Shown here: positions 33,023 through 37,000 of the stretch, piece by piece
Layout of the letters: each line of letters starts with the position of its first letter
Position numbering within the stretch: the first letter of the stretch is position 1
Assembly (NCBI GenBank): GCA_020630575.1
Contig: JAHDBD010000001.1
Coordinates: 124,001 to 188,000 of the forward strand
Length of the DNA: 64,000 nt
Direction of reading: 5' to 3'
Origin: Bernardetia sp.
GTDB lineage: Bacteria > Bacteroidota > Bacteroidia > Cytophagales > Bernardetiaceae
Program-made: the position numbers and the translations under genes
The notes under the pieces: model-generated
Database searches by the model: none
The model's input: only the letters and a program-made list of their open reading frames with translations
Told to the model about the DNA's origin: nothing

Positions 33023-33137
33023 CTACATATTCCTCCTATACTGCCCCCCCACTTCAAACAAAGCTCTAGTAATCTGTCCTAACGAACAGGTTTTAGTAGC
33101 TGTCATTAAGTGTTCAAACATATTTTCGTGTTTGATG
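33023..33137 (-). pseudogene. Duplicated 3' fragment of icmF
   Basis: Positions 33024-33137 match 34009-34122 without gaps over 114 bases, with four mismatches by my count. They encode, on the minus strand, the last 38 codons of the acyl-CoA mutase plus a stop codon (TAG here, TAA in the real gene). The unique 871 bases between the copies hold the RAYT gene and three palindromes. No promoter or start is present. Confidence 0.85.
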
Positions 33138-33193
33138 TTCGAAAGATTTAGTAAGTATTAGTAAAGAAAAAGTACGAAAAATGAAAATAACCA

Positions 33194-33224
33194 AACCCTA
33201 AGGGTCTTCAAGACCCTTAGGGTT
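33194..33224. repeat. REP-like palindrome, upstream copy beside RAYT
   Basis: Identical over 31 bases to the rpsO terminator at 11647-11677: AACCCTAAGGGTCTT, C, and the exact reverse complement. It is located 22 bases before the RAYT start codon. Confidence 0.8.
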
Positions 33225-33245
33225 TAAATAAAAACGCACTAAACT

Positions 33246-33881
33246 ATGGCAAACAACAGACAACCTTTGCTTCCAGAAAAAACCTATCATCTATTCCATC
33301 ACGCTATTGGAGAAGAAAATTTGTTTCGTTCGGCTGAAAACTATCGATATTTTTTACAGCGTTATGCAGAATATATTTTTCCAATAGCAGAAACATTTTG
33401 TTATTGTCTTTTGCCTAATCATTACCATTTTTTGATTCGTTTGCGTTCAGAAGAGGAAATATTAGATTGTTTAGACCCAAAGAAACTCAAACGTCAAAAA
33501 TGGAAAGACGAAGATAAATCTATAAGTACGCTATTAGCCAACCGAGTAGGTACTTTTCAAAATGCGTATGCAAAAGCATTCAATAAACAACACTGCAGAA
33601 GAGGTGGTTTATTTGAACAAAGTTTTGGTAGAAAGGAAGTTAAAACAGACAGTTATTTTACAAATGCGATTCATTATGTTCATGCAAATGCTGTGCATCA
33701 CGGTTTTGTAAAAGATATTTTAGATTGGCATTATACTTCTTACAATTCTTTTTTAGCCAATAAAAAATCAAAATTAATGAAAGAAGAGGTTTTTGATTGG
33801 TTTGGAGGAAAAGAACAATTTATAATTCATCATAAAAGAGATATTGACGAACGTTTAATTTTAGAAATGGAAGATTTTTGA
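33246..33881 (+). CDS. REP-associated tyrosine (Y1) transposase, RAYT
   Basis: A 211-residue single-copy-type HUH transposase. NHYH (His59 and His61) is the metal-binding HUH motif, FQNAYAKAFN carries the likely nucleophile Tyr108, GGLFEQSFGRKEV and AIHYVHANAVHHGF complete the RAYT pattern. RAYTs act on REP palindromes in the genome and are usually immobile single genes. Palindromes of one family lie 22 bases upstream (33194) and 8 and 83 bases downstream (33889, 33964). No IS200/IS605-type TnpB gene is nearby. Confidence 0.92.
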   Translation: MANNRQPLLPEKTYHLFHHAIGEENLFRSAENYRYFLQRYAEYIFPIAETFCYCLLPNHYHFLIRLRSEEEILDCLDPKKLKRQKWKDEDKSISTLLANRVGTFQNAYAKAFNKQHCRRGGLFEQSFGRKEVKTDSYFTNAIHYVHANAVHHGFVKDILDWHYTSYNSFLANKKSKLMKEEVFDWFGGKEQFIIHHKRDIDERLILEMEDF

Positions 33882-33888
33882 AATAGTA

Positions 33889-33920
33889 AACCCTAAGGGT
33901 CTTCATAGTCCCTTAGGGTT
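33889..33920. repeat. REP-like palindrome, first downstream copy
   Basis: AACCCTAAGGG and CCCTTAGGGTT are intact while the centre (TCTTCATAGT) differs from the 33194 copy. It starts 8 bases after the RAYT stop. Confidence 0.75.
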
Positions 33921-33963
33921 TTGAAATATACAGTTTTTTGAATACAATCGATACAGAAATACA

Positions 33964-33995
33964 AACCCTAAGGGTCGCTGAAGACCCTTAGGGTT
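33964..33995. repeat. REP-like palindrome, second downstream copy
   Basis: AACCCTAAGGGTC and the arm AGACCCTTAGGGTT surround a different centre (GCTGA). It lies between the first downstream copy and the end of icmF, just before the duplicated segment begins. Confidence 0.75.
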
Positions 33996-34007
33996 AAATA
34001 CATTCAA

Positions 34008-37000
34008 TTACATATTCCTCCTATATTGCCCACCAACTTCAAACAAAGCTCTAGTAATCTGTCCTAACGAACAGGTTTTAGTAGCTGTCATTAGGTGTTC
34101 AAACATATTTTCGTGTTTGATGGCTGCTTTTTGAAGGTCTTTGAGTATTTGCTGATTTTTTTGTTCGTCAAAAGAATGTAGCGATTTGAGCATATTTATT
34201 TGATACTCTTTTTCTTCTTCTGTCGAACGAATTACTTCGGCAGGAATAACGGTAGGCGAACCCTTCGAAGACAAAAATGTATTTACACCCACAATCGGAT
34301 ATTCGCCTGTATGTTTTTGCATTTCGTAATACATACTTTCTTCCTGTATTTGTGTGCGTTGAAACTGTCTTTCCATCGCTCCCAAAACACCACCACGCTC
34401 TGTAATTTGGTCAAAAATCTTCAAAACAGCTTCTTCTACTAAATCAGTCAGTTCTTCAATAATAAACGAACCTTGCAACGGATTTTCATTTTTTGCTAGT
34501 CCTAATTCTTTATTGATGATAAGCTGAATCGCAACAGCACGACGAACAGAATCTTCCGTTGGTGTCGTTATGGCTTCGTCGTAAGCGTTGGTATGCAGCG
34601 AGTTACAGTTGTCGTAAATGGCATACAAGGCTTGTAAAGTAGTACGAATATCATTAAAATCAATTTCTTGTGCGTGCAGTGAACGCCCCGAAGTTTGGAT
34701 ATGATATTTTAGTTTTTGCGCTCTATCGTTTGCTCCGTACTTGTGTTTCATCGCCTTTGCCCAAATACGACGAGCAACACGACCAATAACAGAATATTCT
34801 GGGTCAATTCCATTCGAAAAGAAAAACGAGAAATTCGGTGCAAAATCATTAATATCCATTCCTCTACTCAAATAATATTCTGCAAACGTAAAACCGTTGC
34901 TAAGAGTAAAGGCAAGTTGCGTAATCGGATTTGCGCCTGCTTCTGCAATATGATAACCCGAAATAGAAACCGAATAGAAATTTTGAACGTGATGGTCGAT
35001 AAAATACTGCTGAATATCTCCCATTAATTTTAGCGAAAATTCAGTACTAAAAATACACGTATTTTGCGCTTGGTCTTCCTTCAAAATATCAGCTTGAACC
35101 GTTCCACGTACTTGTGTAAGCGTTTTGGCTTTTATTTTATCATAAATTTCTTTATCCAAAACTTCATCGCCTGTTGCTCCCAAAAGCATCAAACCTAAGC
35201 CGTTATTTCCTTCTGGCAAATCTCCATTATACGTAGGACGAATTTTGCCTTCGTATTTTTTCTTGATTTTTGCCTCAACTTCTTCCTCTAATTCATTTTC
35301 TTTGATATAAATTTCACATTGTTGGTCAATGGCTGCATTCATAAAAAAGGCACAAACCGTAGCAGCAGGGCCATTAATTGTCATTGAAACCGAAGTAGTT
35401 GGGTCAGCCAAATTAAAACCTGAATAAAGTTTTTTAGCATCATCCAAACAACACACACTTACACCCGAATTACCCACTTTTCCATAAATATCTGGGCGAT
35501 AATCTGGGTCTTCTCCATACAATGTTACCGAATCAAAAGCTGTCGAAAGTCGTGCAGCAGGCATTCCTTTTGAAAGATAATGAAAACGTCTGTTTGTGCG
35601 TTCGGGACCTCCTTCTCCTGCAAACATACGAGTAGGGTCTTCGCCTGTACGTTTAAACGGAAAAACGCCAGCCGTAAAAGGAAATTCCCCTGGTACATTT
35701 TCTTGCAAATTCCATTTCAAAATATCTCCCCACGCTTTGTATTTTGGTAGCGAAATTTTAGGGATTTTAGATTGAGAAAGTGAAGTTGTATAAGTTTTTA
35801 AACTAAATTCTTTATTACGAACTTTATAGACAAAATCATCAGCCGTATAAGTAGCTACTTTTGTTTGCCAATCTTCAATTATTTTCCAGTTTGTTCCCTC
35901 TAAAGAAAGTTTTATTTGTTCGAAAGTATCTTTTAAGCCTTGAATAATAGAATCTTTCAATTCTTTTTCCATTTCCTCGTTTTCAGAAATAGAATGAATA
36001 GAAAGTTCTAAACCATATAATTTCTGTGCAATTTCGGCTTGTTCTTCTGCATTTTTATCATAACGACGATTACTTTCGCTAATTTCTGACAGATAACGAA
36101 CTCTTGAAGGAGGAATGATATACTGTTTTTCAGAAGTTGCAGCTGATATTTCAAAAGTAGAATCAAATTTTGTAGGCGATGTTTCATTGATTTTGTTAAT
36201 CAAAGTACGATACAACGTATTCATTCCAATATCATTAAACTGCGATGCAATCGTACCAAAAACAGGAATTTCTGAATCTGGCGTATCCCACAAATTACGA
36301 TTTCTTTTGTACTGTTTTTTGACATCACGAAGCGCATCTAAAGCACCACGTTTGTCAAATTTATTGAGCGCAATTACATCAGCAAAATCAATCATATCGA
36401 TTTTTTCTAACTGCGAAGCTGCACCGTATTCAGGTGTCATGACGTACAAAGAAGCATCTGAATGGTCTGTAATGGCTGTGTCAGATTGTCCAATTCCAGA
36501 AGTTTCGACGATAATCAAATCAAATTCGGCTGCACGAAGAATATCAATCGCATCTTGAACGTATTTTGAAAGGGCTAAATTTGATTGACGAGTAGCCAAC
36601 GAACGCATATAAACACGCTCATTTGTGATAGAGTTCATACGAATACGGTCGCCCAAAAGTGCGCCACCAGTACGACGACGAGAAGGATCGACAGAAACAA
36701 TGGCAATCGTTTTGTCTTCAAAATCCATCAAATAACGTCTTACAAGTTCATCAACTAATGAAGATTTACCTGCACCACCTGTTCCTGTAATTCCCAAAAC
36801 AGGAGCTACTTTTTCAGGTATTAATTCTTTTATTTTCTTTAGAATTTCCTTATTTTTTTCTGGATAATTTTCAACGGCTGAAATAATCCTTCCCAAATTT
36901 TTAGAATTTCTTTCTTTTACTTTTTCTACTTCGCTTATTTCTACATCGTGTCCTGTTGGAAAATCAGTTTGTTCAAGCAAATCATTTATCATTCCTTGCA

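Follow-up and report, generated by a model that had tools for sequence, protein, structure and literature searches.

A RAYT-like transposase gene and GTAG-less nested palindromes in Bernardetia: a probable Bacteroidota variant of the REP/RAYT partnership

The window analyzed here comprises 64,000 nucleotides of a Bernardetia sp. genome (contig JAHDBD010000001.1, positions 124,001 to 188,000), and it contains a gene for a RAYT-like transposase set among short palindromes of one family. The source genome (G000) is represented by an assembly of 5.31 Mb that is 84.5% complete. A sequence-only reading had described an HUH transposase of the RAYT type with one palindrome upstream and two downstream, and all of these were located:

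33246..33881, + strand: RAYT / TnpA_REP-like HUH Y1 transposase, 211 aa (NCBIfam, AlphaFold2, and PDB profile match)
33417..33428, + strand: HUH motif NHYH, residues 58-61 (N58, H59, and H61 invariant in 78 relatives)
33675..33677, + strand: codon of Tyr144, the predicted nucleophile (in YVHANA), aligned with E. coli TnpA_REP Tyr115
33193..33225, no strand assigned: upstream nested palindrome AAACCCTAAGGGTCTTCAAGACCCTTAGGGTTT, 33 nt, ~20 nt before the ATG at 33246
33888..33921, no strand assigned: first downstream palindrome, 34 nt with one mismatched pair, 6 nt past the stop codon ending at 33881
33964..33995, no strand assigned: second downstream palindrome, 32 nt, ~82 nt past the stop codon
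11646..11678, no strand assigned: distant copy, matching the upstream palindrome at all 33 nt

The identity between the upstream and distant copies had been claimed over 31 bases and extends over the whole 33 nt. The site orthologous to the distant copy in G001 also has a palindrome of the family (shared site L187/L051), and the upstream palindrome sequence is repeated 5′ of the orthologous RAYT in G005. Within the window, AACCCTAAGGG occurs 8 times, every time as a paired arm, compared with 0.02 occurrences in shuffles. The 3′ end of a methylmalonyl-CoA mutase-like gene has a 114-nt copy, 96% identical, 5′ of the RAYT (33024-33137 and 34009-34122), placing the RAYT unit between two direct copies of that gene end. 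An XRE-type HTH gene lies ahead of the palindrome and the RAYT in G005 (L020, 1086-1448), and the window seems to retain only a 3′-end remnant of such a gene at ~33140-33192.

Profile and fold comparisons support the window protein as RAYT-like. The NCBIfam model REP_Tyr_transpos (NF047646) gave it 54.4 bits, under the cut-off of 80, and matched 19/19 members of relative set A1 at E 0.001 or better. Pfam gave no match for the 211-aa protein, its Y1_Tnp family was reached by 10 of 19 relatives at E 0.1, and a profile of 19 relatives matched E. coli TnpA_REP (4ER8) at E 2.5e-6. The AlphaFold2 model (mean pLDDT 93.3) needed its input alignment of 78 sequences to become confident, the model from the single sequence reaching a pLDDT of 36.6; its top PDB match was again 4ER8 (E 2e-8, TM 0.73 by target length), with IS200/IS605 transposases next. 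By alignment and model, the protein has the HUH motif and the Y1 fold of RAYT / TnpA_REP proteins. When 4ER8 is aligned with the window protein, Tyr115, the nucleophile of E. coli TnpA_REP, falls on Tyr144 and not with Tyr108, the residue that had been put forward earlier. Tyrosine occupies the Tyr144 position in 77/78 relatives, the sole exception (L076) falling at an alignment gap; Tyr108 is common too (75/78), yet it is not the tyrosine of the Y motif. The Y---NP signature of class 2 is incomplete in the window protein, which keeps Y144 and N148 and has alanine at P149, a position that is P in 73/78 relatives and Ala in the window protein and three other sequences. Across the clade, the HUH motif reads NHFH in 66/78 relatives and F replaces W in 74/78. 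Traits of IS200/IS605 elements were not found, the Y motif being YVHAN rather than Y---Q and G000 holding no near-identical copies of the gene (its closest other homologue there is 45% identical), while the HUH/Y1 core and the Tyr115-aligned tyrosine are those of the RAYT / TnpA_REP proteins that accompany REPs, as in the E. coli REPtron (4ER8; PMC2817692, PMC8266576).

The palindrome is dispersed through the G000 genome, where exact ACCCTAAGGG..CCCTTAGGGT palindromes number 21 (0 in the reversed control) and 53 instances of the core ACCCTWAGGGT were counted (none in the control). Among 12 further extra-core stretches that were read, the inverted second arm is degenerate in nine (L279, L280, L281, L282, L284, L287, L288, L289, and L290), L286 is a direct repeat, and L283 and L285 are solitary; the nine belong to degenerate palindromes, which makes half-sites as independent units the less likely reading. 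The modal length of palindromes beside RAYTs is 33 nt (arm 15, loop 3, arm 15), i.e., the repeat consists of two inverted 15-nt half-sites, 3-4 nt apart, each of which is itself quasi-palindromic with the form AxACCTNNNAGGTxT. Arm positions 3-6 are complementary to positions 10-13 in 79% of cases (39 distinct arms), compared with 52 ± 3% in a control in which 3′ halves were dealt among families and which leaves the relatedness among loci in place. As had been noted from the sequence, no GTAG-type tag was present: neither this nor a GT[AG]G foot was found at 128 ends of type A palindromes, whose core is bordered by A/G only, with a weak pyrimidine preference further out. The residues that read GTAG in E. 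coli TnpA_REP are W94, Q95, E100, H101, and R104 (PMC6006769), and these align with F123, E124, R129, K130, and K133 of the window protein, of which R129 (at the E100 position) is present in 74/78 relatives. This clade repeat, with its nested 33-nt anatomy, no GTAG tag, and replaced GTAG-reading residues, is new here, and no earlier report of the clade's repeats was found in searches of an open-access library.

Compared with known systems, the arrangement resembles the E. coli REPtron in its single-copy gene, its dispersed extragenic flanking hairpins, and its cognate pairing, but differs in having a 33-nt nested palindrome without GTAG foot or orientation tag. It also recalls REPINs (PMC3116915), in which one hairpin is formed from two inverted palindromic units, though the half-sites here are 15 nt long, only 3-4 nt apart, and untagged. 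Quentin et al. (2018) described a TnpA_Y1 subclass 2.6 (RAYT group 5), mostly from Bacteroidetes, with motifs NH[LIV]H, WQ, and YIH[QN]NP, a median length of 179 aa, and atypical flanking secondary structures that lack GTAG and have copies elsewhere in the genome (PMC6006769). The repeats studied here are likewise atypical, GTAG-less, and copied in the genome, whereas the clade departs from subclass 2.6 as judged by the published motifs (NH[FY]H, mostly F for W, and ~185-225 aa), and the window RAYT has NHYH, F-E, and YVHANA in place of the subclass motifs. Genes that do resemble subclass 2.6 (NHVH, NHIH, or NHLH with W) were seen in related genomes, with 23-nt hairpins on both sides at L047, L141, and L158. 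Subclass 2.1, for which NH[YF]H and F for W are published variants and no REPs were found, has been linked to the TIRYTs of Di Nocera et al. (2013) (PMC6006769), and TIRYTs (TIRtrons), largely subclass 2.1, carry GTAG-less inverted repeats, some self-complementary and some genome-repeated, many of them sharing GGGGWSAS (PMC3733652, PMC6006769). The clade is like this group in NH[YF]H, F for W, and GTAG-less inverted repeats, and unlike it in having REP-like structures, whereas subclass 2.1 was reported without them; the GGGGWSAS motif was not found in the CCCTAAGGG palindromes. The proposal that a Bacteroidota version would extend the REP/RAYT set is therefore less novel than it seemed, since Bacteroidetes TnpA_Y1 genes with atypical, GTAG-less flanking repeats were published in 2018 (PMC6006769). 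On sequence comparison, the pair would be a Bacteroidota variant of the REP/RAYT partnership, of a known kind but with motifs that differ from subclass 2.6 as published.

Support for a functional pairing comes mainly from comparison among relatives. Our survey covered 99 loci with relatives, drawn from Cytophagales genomes and from named records, most of them Bacteroidota and a few from other phyla. At least one flanking hairpin was present at 81/99 loci and hairpins on both sides at 54/99. Upstream and downstream hairpins matched at ≥80% in 46 of the 54 two-sided loci (median 96%), compared with 19 of 648 pairings between different loci. Palindrome similarity also followed protein similarity over 68 loci (Mantel r 0.26; null sd 0.04), with all 1000 permutations falling below the observed value (maximum 0.14). 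The flanking palindromes differ from one RAYT to another, for example AAACCTATAAGG.. at L017, AACTCTCCAAGGG.. at L022, and AGATTTGACAAC.. at L115 and L120, and the second RAYT of G000 (L017) sits between CCTATAAGG palindromes. Because relatives are thus flanked by their own, different palindromes, those beside the window RAYT appear to be of its own type, as had been suggested, and, as described for RAYTs, the flanking REP-like repeats recur elsewhere in the genome. The same-locus match and the Mantel correlation together indicate that RAYTs of this clade carry their own repeats, a cognate pairing that these comparisons support well.

Copy numbers tell a more varied story. Genome counts had been expected to follow the presence of the RAYT, and within the genus they do not: the two carriers of the window RAYT, G000 and G005 (whose RAYT occupies this locus with 95% identity), hold 21 and 25 palindromes, and G001-G004, in which only RAYTs of ~40% identity or less were found, hold 21, 13, 20, and 12, respectively. 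The copy number of the CCCTAAGGG palindrome is therefore independent of the window RAYT inside the genus. G079, of the same species as G000, gave no match to the window RAYT and has a different hairpin in its mutase 3′ neighborhood. Because palindromes are present both with and without the RAYT in the genus, the gene may have been gained and lost while the repeats remained. The CTCCAAGGG-type palindrome does track its cognate RAYT: among 79 genomes it was counted 12 times in G057, 11 in G023, 3 in G056, and once each in G022 and G055, with zeros in 74; it adjoins the RAYTs of G023 and G057, and one of the G056 copies lies next to a split RAYT match (C9:519306-519800). The CCTATAAGG type is present in 27/79 genomes, many of them without a detected cognate RAYT. 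The second highest count, 31, is in G028, which has a RAYT flanked by four copies, and the highest, 82, is in G066, where no cognate RAYT was found.

These counts bear on the strongest alternative, according to which the RAYT once spread the palindromes and the host now maintains them as 3′-end hairpins or terminators, the RAYT having no current role in their number or position. The persistence of copies without the RAYT in congeners and within the same species fits such a relic pair, as do the degeneracy of some copies and the placement of palindromes, which lie within 35 nt of 46/59 gene 3′ ends (those listed at ≤400 nt in G000, G001, and G005; ORF-based 5′-end distances were set aside, as stop codons inside the palindrome bias the values). 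However, the copies adjoining the RAYT are intact or nearly so, and only 2 of 21 sites are common to G000 and G001, which implies turnover, and we consider this account rather unlikely, if plausible.

Turnover was also visible within the species, in a form that is likewise new here. Among 13 G000 sites compared with G079, the palindrome is kept, in some cases with changes, at eight (L178, L179, L182, L183, L188, L191, L193, and L194), shows larger differences at two (L185 and L190), and is replaced in the same slot by another hairpin at three: an unrelated one at L181, a CCTATAAGG palindrome at L180 (assigned from the site alignment, the automatic comparison step having given no L180 row), and one like the flanks of the L032 RAYT at L189. 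The G079 counterparts of the swapped sites L180, L181, and L189 are L273, L261, and L263, and two of the three swapped hairpins resemble repeats of other RAYTs in the genus. That one slot holds different hairpins in close relatives, and that the palindromes lie behind stop codons and end in short A/T runs, would also be expected if they were ordinary host terminators of convergent form, with the RAYT nearby by chance and no functional link. We regard this as very improbable, since hairpins upstream and downstream of a RAYT resemble one another but not the hairpins found at other RAYTs, palindromes of the CTCCAAGGG type follow their cognate RAYT, and unassociated hairpins are weaker in nested symmetry (mean 0.46 vs 0.71, p 4e-5), 33 nt not being their common length.

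In two genomes, the palindromes appear to have traveled inside larger units. G007 has 71 palindromes, no RAYT of the window family was found there, and the search gave only a distant RAYT-like match (31 bits). At all 15 of the G007 loci that were read (L163-L177), a longer repeat bounded by inverted ends encloses the palindrome, and it measures ~180 bp as read from the alignment in 13 of them; L172 and L173 are shorter, lacking the palindrome-flanking stretches (around GACACGAAATAAAATTTGGACT and GGGCATAGG) and keeping the outer ends. This repeat, whose inverted ends lie near GCAGTGATGTTAAATTCT and which contains the palindrome, looks MITE-like, so that, for the sites read, the G007 count reflects its carrier. 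In G066, a longer flank is common to 5 of the 12 CCTATAAGG copies read (L296, L299, L301, L303, and L305), as if these palindromes were carried by another MITE-like element. A plain palindrome count against RAYT presence was rejected as the sole test, as it fails in the genus and the G007 count misleads. That the palindromes travel mainly as cargo of MITE-like elements mobilized by an unrelated transposase, a view backed only by the loci read in G007 and by some of those in G066, is the least probable of the readings and insufficient for G000, whose copies as read have mutually unrelated flanks outside the 33-mer, no conserved flank emerging from the pooled copies of G000, G001, and G005 either.

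The best reading, to which we assign a probability of roughly 0.6, is that the window holds a Bacteroidota REP/RAYT pair (REPtron-like) in which the RAYT acts on its own palindrome and has helped its spread. Counted for it are the fold and Tyr144 match to 4ER8, the same-locus hairpin match, the Mantel correlation, the tracking of CTCCAAGGG, the pairs at G028 and L017, and the low number of sites common to G000 and G001 (2 of 21). Against it we counted the copy numbers in the genus, CCTATAAGG without a cognate RAYT, G079, the alanine in the Y motif, the sub-cut-off profile score, and the failure to find a clean empty site where the mutase gene ends, a neighborhood that differs in every congener read. 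Under a REP/RAYT pairing, the single-copy Y1 transposase would recognize its 33-nt nested palindrome when this folds into a hairpin within single-stranded DNA, perhaps at a replication fork or transcription bubble, and would nick and rejoin it via Tyr144; it might thereby have helped to disperse a family of short non-autonomous hairpins, which come to rest immediately after stop codons and could act there as bidirectional terminators or 3′-end hairpins. More speculatively, and in our view quite unlikely, the clade may follow a distinct rule by which the transposase recognizes, in place of a GTAG foot, the nested palindrome as a minimal REPIN built of two inverted 15-nt mini-hairpins, and can replace the hairpin of one RAYT with that of another at a given 3′-end slot.

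Together, these comparisons suggest that GTAG-less cognate repeat-transposase pairs recur across a clade of Bacteroidota with motifs unlike those of the published Bacteroidetes subclass, and they tell apart two routes of spread, one as solitary palindromes and one aboard MITE-like repeats. They also provide a repeat whose 33-nt anatomy is defined, along with a dense comparative set, dozens of RAYTs and dozens of distinct palindromes, for learning how a RAYT reads its repeat.
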